Source: Mesoterricola silvestris
Lineage (GTDB): Bacteria; Acidobacteriota; Holophagae; Holophagales; Holophagaceae
Length of the DNA stretch: 64,000 nucleotides
Direction: 5' to 3'
NCBI RefSeq assembly: GCF_030295405.1
Contig: NZ_AP027080.1
Coordinates: forward strand, 2,294,001-2,358,000
Shown: piece by piece, positions 1,243-14,705 of the stretch
Layout of the letters: each line of letters opens with the position of its first letter
Position numbering within the stretch: the stretch's first letter is position 1
Position numbers and translations under genes: made by a program
Notes under the pieces: generated by a model
The model's database searches: none
What the model saw: only the letters and a program-made list of their open reading frames with translations
What the model was told of the DNA's origin: nothing

Positions 1243-4200
1243 CTAACCTTCCATCTTATCCCGTGCGCGCCCGACCCGCGCCAGCTGGGAACGGTACACC
1301 CGCCCCAGGAAGTCCGCGAGCACCAGTTCGTGGGCGCGGTGGGACCCGCGCATGAACCGGTTCACCTGCATGTGCACGAGGCTGGCCGCGAGGTCCTCCA
1401 GGGGCAGGGAGAGGCGGCCATGGGAGGCGGCTTCGGCCAGGCGGTGCAGGCACGTGCGCTGGCGGTGGAGGCGGGGGTCGGGGAGCGCGGGCGGGGCGGG
1501 GCGTCCGGGGACGGGGATCCAGGCCTCCAGGTCCCTTCGCAGGCTCCGGTAGCGCTCGCCGAGCTGGATGCCAAGTTCCGGGTTGAACTCGCGGCCGAGC
1601 CCGCCCCGGATGGCGTCCACGATCCTGAGCTTGGCCGTGAGGCTCAGCCCCAGGCCCGAAAGGAGCTCGTCCATGGCCTTGAAGGCGCGCTGCCAACGCA
1701 GCCCGGAGCCCTCCTCCCCGTCGCACTCATGGAGAAGATCCAGGGCCTTCTCGCTGTCCTGCTCGAACCAGGCCTCGGCGAGGAGCATGCCCTCCAGGCC
1801 CCCGTACCGCTCCAGTTCGCGCTCGTACGTGTCCACCTGGACCTTCCAGCAGGCGCCCGATTTCAGGTGCGGGGCCAGGATGCGGCGGATGAGGGGAAGC
1901 AGGTTCGAGGTGAGCTGGGTCGGGGTGCCGTGGAAGCGCAGCCGGAGGTGGGACTCGGGGTCCGCGTACCTCACGAAGAACCAGCGGTCCCAGGCCTGGA
2001 CCGTGATGCGCCGGAGGGTGTCCAGGAGCACCGCGAGGATGCGGTCCGACGCCGCGGGGCCCGCGTAGACCTTGATGTAGAGCCATTCGGACCCTGGCGG
2101 ATAGGACCGGGCCGCCTCGGCCGTGCTGGAGGGGCGCGGGGACCGCCTCGCGGGGAGAGGGGGTTCCTTCTGCTGGAAGGGGATCACCAGTTCGTGGAAG
2201 TAGCGGCCTTCGGGCCCGGCCGCGGCCAGTTCCTCCGGGCCCGGGAAGGCCTCCACAAGGGTGAAGGAAGGCCGGCTGGCCACGATGTGCTCCAGGGTGG
2301 CCGCGCGCAGCGGATCGTCCAGATCCACCCAGAGGGTGCTGTCGGCGTCCTCCAGCACCACGTGCCGGGGCAGGCGCCGCGGAGCCCGGAGGGCCTGGAG
2401 GCCTCCGGCCTCCAGTTCCCGGGCCTCCACGCGCCAGCGGGCCCGGCACAGGACGTGGCGGCCGCGGGTGACCCGGGGCAGGAAGGGCAGGGCCTCCAGC
2501 GGGCCCCAGGTCCATCCCCCGGCCCTGCCGTCCTGCTCCTGCAGGTGCGCCAGGAACCGGAAGACGGGAAGGCCCTGGGCATAGTTGTGGGCGGTGGCCA
2601 TGCGCGGGACCACTTCGCGGCCCAGCCGGATCGAGCGCAGCACGAGCCGGTCCCCCTCCAGGGCGAGGGTCAGGTCCGCGGGGGGGATCTGGTGATCCAG
2701 GGGGGCGCCGCTGGAGCCCAGGAAGGGGATCTCGAAGGCCCGCAGGCGGGGGCGGGCGATGATGTTGCCGATGCGGCCATCGGGCTGGTGCACGATCTCC
2801 GCGAAGACCGCCTCGGGGCGCCGGGCCTCCTCCACGCGCAGCAGCTCCTCCACCCGGGACGCCAGCCGCGGGTCCCCCAGGCAGAACCGCCCCAGGAGCT
2901 GGGCCCCCGATGGGCCGGAATAGGATTCCATGAGCACCTGGAAGTCCCCCCGCGCCAGGGCCTCCGGCGAAGGGGAGGCCAGGGCCGCCAGGGCCGAGAA
3001 GGTGGCGGGGAAGGGCCTCGGCCCGGGCTCGCCCAGGATGGCCAGGTCCGCGTCGTCCAGGGCCCACTCGGGGGCGTTCCCGAGGAAATGGAGGCGCTTG
3101 AGGATGTGCCGGTCCCGGGCGGTGAAGGGCGGATCGGCTTGTGCCGCGGCCTGGAAGGGAAGGCCCTGGAGGAGGGGGGATCCGTCCAGGCCCGGCGGGG
3201 GCTTGGGGCCGAAGCCGATGCCCGCCTCGGCGTCCAGGGCCTCCAGGAGGGGCACGGCGCGGGTGCCGTAGCGCTCCCGGAAGGCGTCCCGGAAACGGTC
3301 CAGGGGGCTTTCCCGCCGGTGGGGCGTGATGAGGCGCAGGCGTTCCACGGCTTCCTCCAGGGCCCGGCGCACCTCCGGGCCCAGATGGAGCTCCTCCGAC
3401 GGCTTGTGGAGATCCACCTGGAACAGGCGCCTGGGATCGGCGGGCACGGCGAGGGCCTCCAGTTCCCGGGCCAGGGCCCGGTACCTCCCGGGGGCGGCGC
3501 CCGCCCCGGCCTCGTCCAGCTCCCCCAGCTCCGTGACGATCCGTTCGAGCCGCTCCCCCAGGGGCCGGGTCCCGCCCTGGGCCTTGAGGTGGCCGGCCAG
3601 GGCCTGGAGGGGCTCCTCCCCGGTGACGGCCGGTTCCAGGTCGCTGGTGAGGATCCGCCCCTCCACCAGTTCATCCAGGAAGCCCGAGGCCTCCCCGGGC
3701 TCCACCTCCACCGCCTGGGCGAGGACCCCCGCCAGGCTGCCCAGGCCCGCCCCGCCCGCGGCGCAGGCCAGGGCTTTGTCCAGATGGCCGGTGGGCTCCA
3801 GGGCCACCAGGTGGTACTCCCGGCCCTCACCGGCGCCAAGGCGGGGCTCGGCGTAGTGCCAGCGCCCCGCGGCCAGATGGAGGCTGGTGTTGGGCCTCCA
3901 GGTGAGGAGTCCGCGCACCTCCGGGTTGCGTTCCAGATCGGCCACCAGGGCCGCCAGGTAGTCGTTGTCAAGCCGGGTGCGCCGGACGCATTGGGCCAGG
4001 GGCGGCACGCGCAGGTCGCTGACCGGGCCCCAGGCCCCCACCCCACAGCCGGCGAAGAGGCCGAAGGGCGTCGAGCGGGAACCCATGCGGGTGAGGTACC
4101 GCACGAGGCTCTGGTCCACCCGCTGGGCGCGGGCTTCCGGCAGATCGCCCCGCAGCCATGGATCCAGGGCGGTATCCAGGTCCGGGGAGGCGAGGAAGAG

Positions 4201-4332
4201 GGCTTCCCGGATTTCCGGGCGCCGCACCGCCGCGGCCAGGTGTTCCCGGGTCCAGGCCCGGGTGGGGTCCACGGGCAGGCCGGGGGTGCGGAGAACGAAG
4301 AAGGGGGCTGTGCGGACGGTGGGAGAAGGCAT
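1243..4332 (-). CDS. lanB: Full-length class I lanthipeptide dehydratase (LanB-type, with SpaB_C elimination domain)
   Basis: Class I LanB enzymes use glutamyl-tRNA to glutamylate Ser/Thr of a precursor peptide and then eliminate glutamate, giving Dha/Dhb. This 1029-residue protein has both halves. Residues about 10-700 resemble the Lant_dehydr_N glutamylation domain (N-terminal PFFVLRTPGLPV, then VRYLTRMGSRSTPFGLFAG). From about residue 748 it has the SpaB_C elimination domain: WLYIKVYAG, then WFFVRYADPESHLRLRF, then DTYERELERYGG. The length matches NisB/SpaB rather than split dehydratases. No LanC, protease or ABC exporter is adjacent. The gene is divergent from a Cys-free candidate precursor at 4553-4711, with a LytTR-like operator between them. 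thiM follows 14 bases downstream. Family is firm; the substrate is inferred from position. Confidence 0.92.
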   Translation of the reverse strand: MPSPTVRTAPFFVLRTPGLPVDPTRAWTREHLAAAVRRPEIREALFLASPDLDTALDPWLRGDLPEARAQRVDQSLVRYLTRMGSRSTPFGLFAGCGVGAWGPVSDLRVPPLAQCVRRTRLDNDYLAALVADLERNPEVRGLLTWRPNTSLHLAAGRWHYAEPRLGAGEGREYHLVALEPTGHLDKALACAAGGAGLGSLAGVLAQAVEVEPGEASGFLDELVEGRILTSDLEPAVTGEEPLQALAGHLKAQGGTRPLGERLERIVTELGELDEAGAGAAPGRYRALARELEALAVPADPRRLFQVDLHKPSEELHLGPEVRRALEEAVERLRLITPHRRESPLDRFRDAFRERYGTRAVPLLEALDAEAGIGFGPKPPPGLDGSPLLQGLPFQAAAQADPPFTARDRHILKRLHFLGNAPEWALDDADLAILGEPGPRPFPATFSALAALASPSPEALARGDFQVLMESYSGPSGAQLLGRFCLGDPRLASRVEELLRVEEARRPEAVFAEIVHQPDGRIGNIIARPRLRAFEIPFLGSSGAPLDHQIPPADLTLALEGDRLVLRSIRLGREVVPRMATAHNYAQGLPVFRFLAHLQEQDGRAGGWTWGPLEALPFLPRVTRGRHVLCRARWRVEARELEAGGLQALRAPRRLPRHVVLEDADSTLWVDLDDPLRAATLEHIVASRPSFTLVEAFPGPEELAAAGPEGRYFHELVIPFQQKEPPLPARRSPRPSSTAEAARSYPPGSEWLYIKVYAGPAASDRILAVLLDTLRRITVQAWDRWFFVRYADPESHLRLRFHGTPTQLTSNLLPLIRRILAPHLKSGACWKVQVDTYERELERYGGLEGMLLAEAWFEQDSEKALDLLHECDGEEGSGLRWQRAFKAMDELLSGLGLSLTAKLRIVDAIRGGLGREFNPELGIQLGERYRSLRRDLEAWIPVPGRPAPPALPDPRLHRQRTCLHRLAEAASHGRLSLPLEDLAASLVHMQVNRFMRGSHRAHELVLADFLGRVYRSQLARVGRARDKMEG

Positions 4333-4419
4333 GGTAGGAAAATCCGTTGGCGAGCGCGCCGATCGGCGGGCGAGGGGTTCCCCCAGCCTAGAATCGAGCG
4401 CGATTCCGGCCTGGAAATT

Positions 4420-4480
4420 TCCCTGAACGGGCGTTTTCGGGGGATGAACGGTTCGGACCCGGAATCGGCGCGTTCAGGGA
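4420..4480. promoter_or_regulatory. Symmetric four-half-site LytTR-type operator between lanB and the precursor gene
   Basis: A dyad centred on base 4450 has outer arms TCCCTGAACG (4420-4429) and CGTTCAGGGA (4471-4480) and an inner GAAC-G-GTTC. On the minus strand, ACCGTTCAT (4452-4444) and CCCGTTCAG (4431-4423) are direct repeats 21 bp apart. On the plus strand, ACGGTTCGG (4448-4456) and CGCGTTCAG (4469-4477) are also 21 bp apart. Nine-base repeats of the type [TA][AC][CA]GTTN[AG][TG] with 12-bp spacers are the known layout for LytTR regulators. One pair points each way, so one LytTR regulator could control both lanB and the peptide operon. A LytTR regulator is encoded at 5773. Confidence 0.75.
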
Positions 4481-4552
4481 TATTCTGGAGCTTCACCAAG
4501 GCCATGCCGTAAAACGGGTGCCGTGCCCCAGGGCACGCCCCAGGAGATGGCC

Positions 4553-4711
4553 ATGAAACCCCGACTTGTCCTCCGCAAGGAAACCCTTCACCTTCTCGCC
4601 TCCCCATCGCGCAGGGACGGTGCGTTGCTAGCCGGATCGCCCGGCAACAAGACTGGAGCCCATGACGCCACCGCCGCCAGCATCACGACCATCTGGACCA
4701 CGCCTTGGTGA
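4553..4711 (+). CDS. Candidate class I lanthipeptide-type precursor peptide without cysteine
   Basis: A 52-residue peptide. It starts MKPRLVLRKETLHLL, which resembles the LxLxKETLxxL leader of class I lanthipeptide precursors. A basic/glycine linker follows (SPSRRDGALLAGSPG). It ends in a Thr/Ser/Trp-rich tail, ATAASITTIWTTPW. AGGAG at 4542-4546 lies 6 bases before the ATG, an excellent ribosome site that decides the start over an upstream in-frame ATG at 4523. The tail holds several Ser/Thr but no Cys anywhere, so lanthionine rings are impossible without another thiol donor. It is divergent from lanB, and its last 50 bases overlap the start of the kinase gene. It could instead be a regulatory leader peptide of that kinase. 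The precursor role is inference. Confidence 0.6.
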   Translation: MKPRLVLRKETLHLLASPSRRDGALLAGSPGNKTGAHDATAASITTIWTTPW

Positions 4712-5768
4712 GAGGGATCCGTTCCACCCCGCCCCGAAAGGAAAGCTGGGGGAGCTCCACCTCAAGGGGTGGGTGCTCCTGTGCGTCTCCCTGCTCTTCA
4801 CGGCGGTGGCCCTCCGGGCCTACCACCGGCTCGGCGTGGCGGGCAATCCCTGGATCCTGGGATCGGCCGCGTTGCTGCCCGCGTTCCATCTGGCGACCAT
4901 CGTCCTGGCGGTGCCCATGGCCTGGCGGATCCGGGCGAGGGGCTGGCCCGTCCTCGTCTTCGCCCAGAGGCTGGTGGTGGCCCTCGCCCTCTCCGAGGCC
5001 GCCTGCGCCCTCATCGTGCTCCTGGACCTGTGGGTGCGGGGCAGGGCGGGAATGCAGACCCCGAACGCCGCGGGGGTCATGCTGTCCTATCTCTTCGTCG
5101 TGGCGCCGGCCATGACGGCCGCGGGAGGCCTCGTGGCCGCCAGAGCCAATGCAATGGATGAAAAGGAAGCCATGGTCGCAGAAGCGAACATCGCCCGGAC
5201 GCGGCTGCTCCAGAGCCAGCTCCACCCCCACGTGCTTTTCAATGCCCTCAATGGCCTGGCGGAGCTCATCCACAAGGATCCGCCCACCGCCGAGCAGAGC
5301 GTCAAGCACCTGGCCGATCTGCTCCGCAGGATCCTCCGGGCCTCGGAAACGCCGACCTTCTCCCTGGGCGAGGAACGGGCCCTGGTGGAGGATTACTTGT
5401 TCATCGAAGGGCTGCGCCTGGGCCTTCGGCTGCGCCTCCAGTGGGACTGGGATGCCAGCCTGGACGGCCAGCAGGTTCCGCCCCTGCTCATCCAGCCCCT
5501 GGTGGAGAACGCCATCAAGCACGGCATCGCCCCCAACCGGGGCGGCGGCGAGCTGCTGGTGCGGGTGGGGCGGGACGGCCGGGACCTGATCCTGGAAGTG
5601 TGGAACACCGGCGCGGCGTACGAGGCCCGGCCGGGGTCGGGCATCGGCCTGAGGAACCTGGAAGCCCGTCTGGCGTTGCATTTCGGCCTGGACACGGCCT
5701 TCAGCATCCAGCCGGACAAGGGCGGCACCCTGGCCTCCATTCGCTTGCCGGGCGTCTTGCTACACTGA
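4662..5768 (+). CDS. LytS-type membrane sensor histidine kinase
   Basis: A 368-residue kinase of the His_kinase/LytS class, which pairs with LytTR regulators. About four membrane helices lie at residues 37-53, 65-88, 98-122 and 138-160. The phospho-acceptor block LQSQLHPHVLFNALNGL follows (residues 184-200, family form PHFLFN, likely His190). The C-terminal ATPase has PLVENAIKHGI (N box) and GSGIGLRNL (G box). There is no PAS or HAMP domain, so sensing is probably by the membrane bundle, as in peptide-pheromone kinases. The ATG at 4662, with GGAG just before it, overlaps the precursor ORF. The regulator gene starts 4 bases after the stop. The context suggests that the LanB product or a related peptide is the signal; that is inference. 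Confidence 0.9.
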   Translation: MTPPPPASRPSGPRLGERDPFHPAPKGKLGELHLKGWVLLCVSLLFTAVALRAYHRLGVAGNPWILGSAALLPAFHLATIVLAVPMAWRIRARGWPVLVFAQRLVVALALSEAACALIVLLDLWVRGRAGMQTPNAAGVMLSYLFVVAPAMTAAGGLVAARANAMDEKEAMVAEANIARTRLLQSQLHPHVLFNALNGLAELIHKDPPTAEQSVKHLADLLRRILRASETPTFSLGEERALVEDYLFIEGLRLGLRLRLQWDWDASLDGQQVPPLLIQPLVENAIKHGIAPNRGGGELLVRVGRDGRDLILEVWNTGAAYEARPGSGIGLRNLEARLALHFGLDTAFSIQPDKGGTLASIRLPGVLLH

Positions 5769-5772
5769 GGGC

Positions 5773-6513
5773 ATGGACCGCCTGAACGTCGTCATAGCGG
5801 ATGATGAACCGCTCGCCCTGGAGCGCTTGGCCCGCCTGCTGAACGAGGCGGACTGCCAGGTGGTCGCTTCCCTGGAGGACGGACCCTCGCTCCTGGAGTG
5901 GGTGGCCGCCAACGGGGACACCAAGGTGGATGTGCTCTTCCTGGACATCCAGATGCCCGGCCTCAACGGGCTGGAGGTTCTGGCCGAACTCAAGCGCCCG
6001 CCTCTCACCGTCTTCGTGACCGCCCACGCCGACTACGCCATCCAGGCCTTCGAAGCCGCCGCGGTGGACTACCTCCTGAAGCCCGTGTACGAGGACCGCC
6101 TGGCCCGCACCCTCCAGCGGGTGCGGGAGCGCAAGGTGCACCGCCTCACCACCGCCGAATGGCACGCCATGCTCCCCCCCCTGGAACGGGTGCCCGTCCT
6201 GGCGGGCTTCGGCACCATCCTGCTGGACCTGAAGTTCATCACCCACTTCGAATTCGCGGACGACAAGGTGTGGGCCCACGCCCTCACCCGGCGCCACGAG
6301 ACCACCTGGGGGAGCCTGCGGGAGGTGGAGGAGACCTTCCCCGCCGCCGGCATGGTCCGCATCCAGCGCAACCTCCTCCTGCGGCCCGAGGCCGTCATCG
6401 GGGTGAGGGAACTGATGCGGGGGCGCCTGGAAGTGCGCCTGGCCAAGCACACCGAACTGATCGTCAGCCGCACCATGGCGAAGGTGCTCCGGGCACGGCT
6501 TTCCATGGATTGA
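5773..6513 (+). CDS. LytTR-family response regulator
   Basis: A 246-residue cytoplasmic response regulator. The receiver domain (1-120) has the acidic pair DDE at 10-12, the phospho-acceptor Asp58 in FLDIQMPG, Thr83 and Lys103 in LLKP. The C-terminal LytTR DNA-binding domain (about 140-244) shows FITHFEFADDKVWAHALT, then VRIQRNLLLRPEAVIGV, then VSRTMAKVLRARL. It follows its kinase by 4 bases. The operator at 4420-4480 carries repeats spaced 21 bp, as LytTR proteins prefer, so its likely targets are lanB and its own operon. Target assignment is inferred; the domain call is firm. Confidence 0.93.
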   Translation: MDRLNVVIADDEPLALERLARLLNEADCQVVASLEDGPSLLEWVAANGDTKVDVLFLDIQMPGLNGLEVLAELKRPPLTVFVTAHADYAIQAFEAAAVDYLLKPVYEDRLARTLQRVRERKVHRLTTAEWHAMLPPLERVPVLAGFGTILLDLKFITHFEFADDKVWAHALTRRHETTWGSLREVEETFPAAGMVRIQRNLLLRPEAVIGVRELMRGRLEVRLAKHTELIVSRTMAKVLRARLSMD

Positions 6514-7160: not shown

Positions 7161-7679
7161 CGTGGACGTCCGGGTTCCGGACCTTCGCCCTGGTTCGTCA
7201 TCGCCGGACAAGCCGGCGATGACGGGGGGGTGGGGGGGGACGATGGGGCTGTGCTACGCCCATTTTCTCCGTTGAGCGAAGGGGAGTCCGGAGCCGAAGG
7301 GCTCTCCGGGGGGGCCTGGCCTGGTGGGCGGCTGCCAAAGGGATGGTGGGCTCGCTGCGCGTGAGTCGGGTCGACGGGGGAGGGCGCCGACGCTGGTTTC
7401 CATAGCTGGCCCTCATGGGCGGAAGCATCGCGCTTTTTGACAATTCAGTGTCGGCGCCTGTCGGCACCGGGAGGTGTTACGCGAAGCGGATCCACCAACC
7501 TTTTGATTGCCGCGCACCTGGCCAGGGCCCCTCAGGAGAGCCTCCTCGCTTCGGACTTCCCTTCGCTCAACGGAGGAAATGGGCGTAGCACAGCCCCATC
7601 GTCCCCCCCCACCCCTCCGTCATCGCCGGCTTGTGCGGCGATGACGAAACGGGGCGAAGGTCGGGGACACGGACGTCTC
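7161..7679. repeat. Large imperfect palindrome filling a convergent intergenic space
   Basis: The whole gap between the genes ending at 7150 (+) and 7680 (-) is an inverted repeat with arms of roughly 230 bases. The outer ends are GGACGTCC-like sequences and each arm carries a REP-like hairpin, CGTCATCGCCGG...CCGGCGATGACG (about 7196-7222 left, about 7619-7646 right). Inward, both arms share GGGGCTGTGCTACGCCCAT and CCGTTGAGCGAAGGG. The right arm matches the element at 14440-14705. I see no gene in it; the short open frames here are frames of the repeat. It probably acts as a bidirectional terminator and is a dispersed element. Confidence 0.75.
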
Positions 7680-10115
7680 CTAGCTGGGTCCCGGCTCTGC
7701 CGGCGGCTTCACCGGGGGGAACTTCAGGGTGAGGACCCGGTCCGGCCATCCGAAGACCTTGAGGTAGCAGACGCCGGCGTCCGGAGGCGAAGGGACGGTC
7801 AGGGTTTCCCGGCCGTCCTGGATGAGGACGGCGGCCTTTTCCCAGGGGCCGGTGGCGGTGGGGGCCACGGCTTCGATCTGGTCAAGGGAGGGACCTACCA
7901 GGCGAAGGCCGGGGGCGGCGGCCTGGACGGCGGTGATGGTGGGGAGGTCCAGGAAGGTGACGGGGAGGGGGAGCCAGTCGCTGGCCCCGGCGCTGGCGTC
8001 CTGGATCTGCACCTCCAGCCGGCCCGCGGCCCTTCCGCCCAGGAGCTCGGCGGGGTTCAGGACGAAGGTGGCCTTTTGGTTGTTGCCCAGCAGGCGGATC
8101 TTGGGGGCGGGGACCACCCGCACGACGCCGGGGTCCTCGGCGTTGCGCAGGGCGGCGTGGACGGCGCCGTCCGGGGGGAAGCGGTAGCCCTTGGCCGTGA
8201 GCAGGGTCACGAGGCTGGGGCCGCCCGTGGGGGCGATGGGCAGGGCGGAGCTCATGGGCAGGCCGGTGCCCTTGCCCTCCATGGGGATGGTCTGGAGGTC
8301 CGCCAGGCGCGGCCTGGGGGGCAGCAGCACGGCGGGGCCCGCGGGGGTCTTTCCGGTGGCGAGGACCAGGGCGGCGGGCAGGGACCGGCCCACGGACCCT
8401 TCCAGGGGCTTGGTGTCCTCCGCCTTGAACCAGCGGCCCTCCGCGGCCTCCCCGTCGGGCAGGAAGCGGCGCTCGGCCAGCTCCAGGGCCTTCACCCCCT
8501 CCAGGTGGCGGCCCTTGAGGAGGATCCGCACCTCGCCCAGGCGGGCCTCCAGGCCCGCGGGTTGGGGCGGGGCCTCCAGGAGCACCAGGGGCAGGGTCCG
8601 GGCGGGCTGGCCGAAGGCGGTGACTTCCAGGGCGCCGGCCCCCGCCTGGGCGGGGGCCGTCTGGAAGACGGCCTCCCGGCCCCCGTCGGGGGCGTCCTTG
8701 AGCTGGGCCGTGAGGGGCGGCGCGCCGGCGGGCCGGAACACCACCTTTTCCACCACCCCCGCCCAGGCCGCGGGCAGCTTCAGGGAGCAGGGCCCGCCCA
8801 CCTGGAACCGCTGGCGCTCCACGGGCGTGGGCGCCCAGGCGGGGTCGACGGCCACGGGCACCTCCACGGGATCCGTGGCCATGCTGGTGAAGCCCCAGCG
8901 TCCCACCACCTTGACCTTCACGGTGGGCGCGCCCAGCTTGCGCAGGGGTTCCTGCAGCGGCGCGCAGGAGGCCACGAACGTCATGTTCGCGGGGCTGGAG
9001 GCCAGGGCCAGGGGGGGCAGCCCCGCCACCACGAGCTTCCAGTCCTGGCCGTAGAGGGCGAAGGGGGTGCGGCCCTTCTCCTTGGGGAGCACCTTCAGGG
9101 CGGCCTGGCCCTTGAGCATGGATTCGCCGGGGGCCAGTTCCAGGCCGAAGGCGGGCGGGGTCAGGTCCTCCCACTTGCCGGGGCAGCACAGGAGGGCGCC
9201 CCGGGTATCGCCCGTGGTGTGGATCCAGTCGCTGTAGTACAGCTCGGCGCCGTCCCCGTGGAAGTTGCGGGCCAGGGCGGGCAGGTAGTTGAACTGGTGG
9301 CCCGGCCAGAGGTTCTTGACGATGGCCGCCAGGTCGAAAAAGATCGAAACGTAGGCCGAGGAGGGCTTGGTGCCCACGGCCACCTGGGCCTCCACGGGGG
9401 AGGCCGTCACCGCCTCGGGGACGAGGACATTGGTCTTGCGGAACTCCTGGGTGAGGAACTGGAACTTGTCCAGGTTGGTGCGGCTCCCACCCACGAAGGC
9501 CTGCAGGTCGCCGGACACGGCGCCGCCGTAGGTGTGCAGGAAGCTCAGCACCGCGTTGTCGTACTGGGCCGCGGAAAGGTTCTTGTCGATGGCCCCCAGT
9601 TCCTCCAGGAAGGCGTCCGCCGTGGCCCGCTCCCCGGAAAGGTCGGAGATCTTGGCGCAGAGCGTGCGGAAGGCCCCCAGGTGGGCGTTCAGGTCCGTGA
9701 GGACCTTCTTCCGGCCGTTCTTGTCGGGGATGAGGAAGATCATGGGGATGGAATCGTAGGGCACCGGGATGGCGGGCGCCGACATGTGCTCGCCCTTGCG
9801 CTTCAGGCGGAAATCCACCACCCCCTGGTCCGTGGGGGCCACGGTGCGGGGCAGGAAGACCACGATGAGGGACCAGTCGGCCCGGGTCACCCGCTGGTCG
9901 AAGGCCTCCCCGGCGAAGCCCAGCTCCAGGTCGTCCCCGAAGCGCAGCACCGGCACCCGGAAGAGGGGCAGGGCGGCCTCCTCGGGCGTGCCCTTCCCCC
10001 GCACGACCCGGGCCGTCATGGCGATGGGCCCCTTCTGGAAGGCCTCCACCAGGGGCGCGCCCAGGGCCGGGGCCGCCAGGAGGGCGGCGATCAACAGCGT
10101 CTGCAAGGTCCTCAT
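7680..10115 (-). CDS. Large secreted protein of unknown function
   Basis: An 811-residue protein that I do not recognise. It starts with a signal peptide, MRTLQTLLIAALLAAPALG (cleavage near 19). No transmembrane segment follows, so it is periplasmic or surface-exposed. The N-terminal third is mixed (VVDFRLKRKGEHMSAP, then IPMIFLIPDKNGRKKVL). The C-terminal half looks like several all-beta modules, with repeated short strands and AGPAVLLPPRPRL-like linkers. Four cysteines are seen, two as CC. The start follows the methyltransferase stop by 5 bases, so the two probably form an operon with thioesterase and NifX-like genes upstream. Its stop sits at the edge of the palindromic repeat. Confidence 0.75.
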   Translation of the reverse strand: MRTLQTLLIAALLAAPALGAPLVEAFQKGPIAMTARVVRGKGTPEEAALPLFRVPVLRFGDDLELGFAGEAFDQRVTRADWSLIVVFLPRTVAPTDQGVVDFRLKRKGEHMSAPAIPVPYDSIPMIFLIPDKNGRKKVLTDLNAHLGAFRTLCAKISDLSGERATADAFLEELGAIDKNLSAAQYDNAVLSFLHTYGGAVSGDLQAFVGGSRTNLDKFQFLTQEFRKTNVLVPEAVTASPVEAQVAVGTKPSSAYVSIFFDLAAIVKNLWPGHQFNYLPALARNFHGDGAELYYSDWIHTTGDTRGALLCCPGKWEDLTPPAFGLELAPGESMLKGQAALKVLPKEKGRTPFALYGQDWKLVVAGLPPLALASSPANMTFVASCAPLQEPLRKLGAPTVKVKVVGRWGFTSMATDPVEVPVAVDPAWAPTPVERQRFQVGGPCSLKLPAAWAGVVEKVVFRPAGAPPLTAQLKDAPDGGREAVFQTAPAQAGAGALEVTAFGQPARTLPLVLLEAPPQPAGLEARLGEVRILLKGRHLEGVKALELAERRFLPDGEAAEGRWFKAEDTKPLEGSVGRSLPAALVLATGKTPAGPAVLLPPRPRLADLQTIPMEGKGTGLPMSSALPIAPTGGPSLVTLLTAKGYRFPPDGAVHAALRNAEDPGVVRVVPAPKIRLLGNNQKATFVLNPAELLGGRAAGRLEVQIQDASAGASDWLPLPVTFLDLPTITAVQAAAPGLRLVGPSLDQIEAVAPTATGPWEKAAVLIQDGRETLTVPSPPDAGVCYLKVFGWPDRVLTLKFPPVKPPAEPGPS

Positions 10116-14439: not shown

Positions 14440-14705
14440 CGTGGATTGGCGTGGCCCCATGGATCGCGCCAAAGCTGATCGGCCATTCAGCGTCGGCGCC
14501 CACCGGCGCCGTTTGGCTCAACGCGAAGCGACCCCCTCAACCCCTTGGCGCCGCCCACTCGCCAGGGCCCCCCAGGAGAGCCGCCCCGTTCCGTCTACCC
14601 ACCCGCCCAACGAAGCCAATGGGCGTAGCACAGCCCCACCGTCCCTTCCTCCCCCCCCGTCATCGCCGGCTGGGCCGGCGATGACGAAACGGGGCGATCA
14701 TCCGG
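14440..14705 (+). repeat. Dispersed intergenic repeat, second copy
   Basis: This matches the right arm of the palindrome at 7161-7679. Shared landmarks in order are CATTCAGCGTCGGCGCC, an ACGCGAAGCG box, CCAGGGCCCC-CAGGAGAG, AATGGGCGTAGCACAGCCCC, and the closing hairpin CGTCATCGCCGGCTGGGCC...GATGACGAAACGGGGCGA (about 14659-14696). It lies between convergent genes ending at 14302 (+) and 14721 (-). The remaining 14303-14440 holds no gene that I can see. Probably a terminator-like mobile repeat of this genome. Confidence 0.75.

Follow-up and report, generated by a model that had tools for sequence, protein, structure and literature searches.

The window analysed here, a stretch of 64,000 nucleotides belonging to a 4.99-Mb single-contig genome, carries a small cassette in which a lanB gene and an operon for a precursor peptide, a LytS-type histidine kinase and a LytTR response regulator are read away from a common intergenic gap (see table). 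In line with the original prediction, the regulator is encoded in the peptide operon, and Pfam recognizes both its Response_reg and its LytTR domain. The kinase ORF overlaps the peptide ORF, and the kinase start codon is uncertain.

The precursor has an RKET leader motif and a Thr-rich C terminus and contains no Cys. Precursors were recovered at 25 of the 28 Holophagaceae loci that have the mirrored layout described below (missing for L173, L188, and L190); all 25 lack Cys, share a leader motif of the RKES/RKET type, and for the most part end in a Thr/Ser-rich stretch. A search of NCBIfam with six precursors returned no family even at an E value of 10. Among the neighbors of the cassette that were scanned, which were some of them only, no LanC or transporter was recognized in the gene calls, and the one LANC_like match in the genome lies 2.1 Mb from the cassette. 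Since the precursors are without Cys and no LanC was recognized beside the cassette, the product is likely a dehydrated, ring-free peptide. Elsewhere in the window, spurious ORFs at 7198-7644 and at 14451-14684, whose peptides are nearly identical (e.g., MGVAQPHRPPPPLRHRRLVRR), point to a repeated intergenic DNA element.

Table. Features of the cassette and its control region (positions in the window)
Feature	Position	Strand	Basis
lanB, full-length dehydratase	1243..4332	-	Pfam Lant_dehydr_N and Lant_dehydr_C, 1.4e-156 and 6e-58
Putative -10 of lanB, TAGGCT	4385..4390	-	Fixed distance common to dispersed copies
Outer LytTR half-site, lanB-directed pair, CCCGTTCAG	4423..4431	-	Sequence; conserved in relatives
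Inner half-site, lanB-directed pair, ACCGTTCAT	4444..4452	-	Sequence; AACNGTT core in 28/28 loci scored
Inner half-site, peptide-directed pair, ACGGTTCGG	4448..4456	+	Sequence; GTT core in 28/28
Outer half-site, peptide-directed pair, CGCGTTCAG	4469..4477	+	Sequence
Putative -10 of peptide operon, TAAAAC	4510..4515	+	Equal distance; CANAAC at same place in relatives
5'-leader hairpin just upstream of peptide RBS	4522..4537	+	Conserved stem in relatives, weak covariation
Precursor peptide, 52 aa	4553..4711	+	ORF read; homologous ORFs in relatives
LytS-type histidine kinase	4662..5768	+	PF06580, 4.2e-18
LytTR response regulator	5773..6513	+	PF00072, 7.5e-24; PF04397, 1.1e-10

Geometry of the mirrored repeats

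Direct reading of positions 4423-4477 bears out two 9-12-9 direct repeats on opposite strands, mirrored about base 4450, as had been proposed. On both strands, the half-sites within a pair are 12 bp apart, with a period of 21 bp, and both pairs thus have the form of a LytTR direct-repeat operator (two half-sites of about 9 bp, 11 to 13 bp apart). The element had been described as a quadruple of half-sites; the two mirrored pairs stand, but the inner 9-mers share 5 bp (4448-4452) and form a single central dyad, AACGGTT, readable on both strands, so that there are not four separate sites. Hence, the element consists of two outer half-sites and one central dyad of the general form AACNGTT. The 34-nt arms of the mirror are 74% complementary (25/34), a palindrome score that none of 2,000 dinucleotide shuffles of the 220-bp gap reached. 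Likewise, the quadruple core AAC-N18/19-AAC-N-GTT-N18/19-GTT scores 12/12 in this gap, and 0 of 2,000 such shuffles did as well.

The two directions are not equivalent. At the peptide-side outer half-site the family consensus is ACCGTTCAT, present in 20 of 28 loci, and both peptide-directed half-sites of this genome (ACGGTTCGG and CGCGTTCAG) fit the consensus poorly, this pair having diverged here. Model R2, which represents the peptide side and was built from relatives, found no match at E <= 0.001 in this genome or in its close relative G005. Furthermore, the central base is asymmetric in 27/28 loci, with ACCGTT on the lanB strand versus ACGGTT on the peptide strand. Such an asymmetry is consistent with an inner site shared by both pairs but favoring that of lanB, and it argues against four equivalent half-sites; the peptide side may make a weaker or different inner contact.

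On either side, the distance between the outer half-site and a -10-like hexamer is exactly 32 bp, which divides into roughly 10 bp, a -35-like hexamer, and roughly 16 bp. Both -10 hexamers are weak matches, and the promoters are putative; relative to them, each repeat lies just 5' of the -35 and within the 31 to 33 bp or so from the -10 at which LytTR operators are placed. In the LytTR autoregulatory promoters of Streptococcus mutans, the available text of one report puts the repeats 4 to 11 bp upstream of the -35 (PMC6193735), and the 32-bp spacing seen here fits that geometry. In the leader of the peptide operon, a stem-loop (alignment A3, window 4510-4552) has 93.6% of its cells paired, with three pairs changed on both sides, a covariation equaled in 17 of 500 shuffles; it may be a 5'-terminal mRNA hairpin.

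Conservation in Holophagaceae and dispersed copies

A LanB match was present in 34 of the 77 genomes of the family survey. Loss of the half-sites in syntenic relatives had been named as the outcome that would speak against the original prediction; the sites are kept, the mirrored layout occupying the expected gap in 28/30 Holophagaceae LanB loci with at least 11 of the 12 core letters (a set from which the LanB matches G085:C1:2039072, G072:C18:137693, and G015:C213 were left out). Of the other two, L168 carries the layout some 500 bp upstream of lanB, and in G015 it shares a separate contig with the kinase gene. Across the 28 loci, the AACNGTT core is invariant and the half-site period is 21 or 22 bp. 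Seven of the 28 cassettes were shuffle tested, all with the quadruple, and its score was reached by 0, 0, 4, 0, 4, 1, and 1 of 2,000 shuffles. The right pair has 24 invariant columns among 25 aligned sequences, and in 24 of 25 its outer GTT is exactly 80 bp from the peptide start codon; in the window this distance is 75 bp, or 81 from the second ATG. The complementarity of the arms in relatives resides in the outer half-sites (128/180 positions) and the inner core (60/60), with the spacers near chance (109/339, or 0.32, versus 0.23 expected from composition). In G005, LanB (C27) is 81% and the regulator 83% identical to those of the window, and the cassette regulators form one clade (support, 0.89).

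The quadruple goes with the kinase-regulator pair. In the 600 bp upstream of LanB genes without such a pair, none of 13 distinct loci scored above 9/12, a level to which shuffles rise as well (L144, a LanB fragment lacking its start, is not among the 13, and L242 and L246 repeat L141 and L142). L143, L248, and L249, where the kinase is present, score 11/12; L143 and L249 lie outside the 30-locus set. G008 and G065 keep kinase and regulator with no lanB found; both have an intact right pair and have lost the mirror's inner AAC. In G025, the lanB match is truncated and the outer left core is altered. Separately, L136 (G004) contains, at 7972-9060, a LanB remnant that consists chiefly of the C-terminal portion, with no kinase or regulator called beside it; it still carries a site about 75 bp upstream, and G004 also has a complete second cassette, L135.

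Sites of the lanB type also occur far from the cassette. The pattern TGAACG-N14..16-TGAACG has 16 matches in this 5.0-Mb genome versus 0 for a reversed-pattern control, which places the left pair in a dispersed family whose spacer is conserved too. Most copies have a TANNNT-like hexamer at about the same distance as in the cassette. A fuller pattern, with up to 3 mismatches, gave 11 matches versus 0 for the reversed control; by genome, the six of the genus gave 11 (G000), 5 (G005), 1 (G002), 1 (G004), 0 (G001), and 0 (G003). At E <= 1e-4, model R1 matched in 5 of 60 genomes (12 in this genome, 6 in G005, 3 in G004, and 1 each in G008 and G002), and these 23 matches partly restate the model, as 15 are rows of R1 itself. 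All five genomes hold the kinase-regulator pair.

Three of the dispersed sites (L145, L148, and L150) precede proteins in which Pfam finds RHS_repeat. These came from longer frames (RHS_repeat in 3/10), the first, cut reading frames beside the sites having yielded no Rhs family. L146 and L147 are also Rhs, with 99 to 100% identity to the L145 kind over the N-terminal 453 residues; three of the dispersed Rhs sites belong to duplicated genes that are almost identical, and these are taken as a single case. Of 10 Rhs promoters checked (Rhs matches L230 and L234 excluded), 5 in this genome and G005 match at 14/14 and that of G004 at 12/14, with 10/14 or less at both G001 loci, one short frame of this genome, and one G005 locus. 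In G001, a cassette-free sister genome, LanB has no kinase-regulator match beside it and the Rhs genes lack the site. For the other targets of dispersed sites (711, 1,375, and 253 aa), Pfam recognized nothing beyond a SHOCT domain in the 253-aa protein. Given the site family and its co-occurrence with the kinase-regulator pair, the cassette regulator probably activates the promoters with lanB-type sites in this genus, including those of Rhs-repeat genes. Among the g4 and g11 genomes with an R2 match, each has a single site apart from G025 and G096, which have two. The wider regulon therefore seems to be particular to this genus.

Some sites have other surroundings. In L137 (G005), a second lanB-type site lies at 9746-9772, just downstream of the regulator gene, and no counterpart was found in the window. 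L163, from G008 (a genome without lanB and peptide), has a separate lanB-type pair near 7640-7666, before a small unrelated ORF (R1 E value, 1.5e-5). The site in L153 (5453-6205) is just 3' of another response-regulator gene and precedes the 1,375-aa protein of no known family, and a weakly matching site in L164 (4940-5635) is likewise just downstream of another response-regulator gene.

Proposed control and alternative readings

On the strength of these sequence comparisons, we consider it probable that the element is the operator of the LytTR regulator of the cassette and provides compact, bidirectional, autoactivating control. One 9-12-9 repeat would be directed at lanB and the other at the peptide-kinase-regulator operon, and the phosphorylated regulator would activate both directions, its own operon included, giving positive feedback. 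The closed autoregulatory circuit of the original prediction is well supported by conservation and by linkage to the kinase-regulator pair, although as a prediction it is unproven. It had further been suggested that one dimer or two would drive lanB and the peptide operon together. Simultaneous binding of two dimers is doubtful in view of the overlap. Because both pairs share the central dyad with overlapping half-sites, we propose instead that occupancy of one pair by a dimer probably keeps a second dimer off the other, so that the directions would be used alternately and not by four monomers at once.

An operator of another LytTR protein, such as a paralogue acting as a global regulator, is the alternative that survives best, and we regard it as unlikely. 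Five other LytTR paralogues in this genome match nearly the whole regulator at 43 to 52% identity, and dispersed sites far from the cassette would suit a global role. Against this, the quadruple accompanies the kinase-regulator pair and is absent from all 13 LanB loci without one, the cassette regulators form a clade of their own, and single R2 sites are the rule in g4 and g11 genomes. Moreover, when the 3.7-kb paralogue loci L002 to L006 were searched for GTT or AAC pairs, the only ones lay in coding regions, in L004 and L005 (genes were called with a simple in-house program that got L002 and L006 wrong).

Considerably less probable is the relic of a mobile or repeated element (a REP or the end of an insertion sequence) in which the motif occurs by chance. 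The 16 dispersed copies, with the spacer conserved in most and common flanks in three, are what such an origin might leave. However, the flanks are mostly unrelated, and the three alike ones are Rhs genes 99% identical in the stretch compared; the dispersed copies keep a fixed distance from a -10-like hexamer, and in different genera the cassette copy keeps both its position and its geometry. Unrelated flanks and fixed promoter spacing thus argue against a mobile repeat. Plasmid records compared with window positions 4330-4560 in "distant" mode gave no match. Least probable of all, and rejected, is a cruciform or RNA hairpin (terminator, attenuator, or processing site) in place of a protein operator: the complementary arms and one Rfam match, to neisseria_FSE, would be in its favor, but that match is far below the cutoff (20.4 bits, where the gathering score is 50; E value, 0.068), complementarity in relatives is concentrated in the half-sites, and the element is located upstream of both proposed start sites.

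Relation to known peptide circuits

Autoinduction is familiar from class I lanthipeptides such as nisin, whose two-component system is NisRK, NisR being an OmpR-type regulator. Like nisin, the cassette has its own two-component system alongside a peptide modified by LanB, and its LanB dehydratase has both Pfam domains in full length. In contrast to nisin, no LanC cyclase, transporter, or protease was recognized beside the cassette, the precursor is free of the Cys that lanthionine rings require, and the regulator is of the LytTR type. The other comparison is with agr, in which the maturation enzyme is AgrB and the locus is marked by an AgrB-type protease and a thiolactone peptide. In this genome and its relatives, we find the makeup of an agr-type divergent locus, namely, a peptide, a maturation enzyme, a kinase, a LytTR regulator, and divergent putative promoters. 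Here, however, the enzyme is LanB and not AgrB, the precursors are without Cys (25/25), and the operon is paired with lanB and not with RNAIII as in agr. By analogy, the cassette may work like agr, but it is not an agr locus.

Between agr P2 and P3 of Staphylococcus aureus, the LytTR protein AgrA binds direct repeats lying between divergent promoters and activates its own operon, and as here, peptide, kinase, and regulator belong to one circuit; the available text describes separate P2 and P3 repeats with SarA sites between them, as opposed to the shared central dyad of the cassette (PMC4227749). The sil system of Streptococcus (SilA; P3/P4 and P5/P6) also has divergent promoters with LytTR direct repeats, together with bacteriocin-like peptides and a transporter, and further sites were found by a chromosome-wide search; it differs in its 10-11-10 repeats, which come in two separate sets (DR1 and DR2), and in having a transporter gene, and LanB is not mentioned in the part of the report available (PMC2766830). 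The LytTR Regulatory Systems HdrRM and BrsRM share 9-12-9 repeats upstream of the -35 and positive autoregulation, whereas, as far as the accessible text goes, they have a single promoter and a membrane inhibitor protein in place of a kinase (PMC6193735). As these sources describe them, agr and sil are close in logic to the cassette and differ in their separate repeats, chemistry, and targets or regulon. The original prediction knew of no described LanB system with this exact layout. Divergent LytTR autoinducing promoters are known, as agr and sil illustrate, and to that extent the layout has precedents; for the shared central half-site, the LanB with a Cys-free peptide, and the Rhs targets, we found no description in the literature searched, nor did we find one of the cassette itself, including in the available portions of PMC10352776 and PMC7268733.

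With its Cys-free precursor, LytS-type kinase, and LytTR regulator, and with no LanC or transporter recognized beside it, the cassette resembles an Agr-type autoinduction module more closely than it does a lantibiotic cluster. The ring-free product and the overlapping kinase suggest that the peptide is an autoinducing signal. More tentatively, and as a possibility that we hold with some doubt, the cassette could be a stand-alone Gram-negative pheromone system that joins a ring-free LanB dehydropeptide, sensing by a LytS-type kinase, a mutually exclusive, see-saw LytTR operator, and Rhs wiring at the level of the genus.

In summary, the element provides a peptide circuit of a phylum that has received little study with a proposed operator that is well defined and can be tested, and it presents a LytTR control region with a half-site common to two divergent promoters. 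The dispersed sites are a candidate regulon that would tie the peptide circuit to Rhs-repeat genes, and the cassette as a whole suggests that a lanthipeptide-type dehydratase can serve signaling without ring formation.
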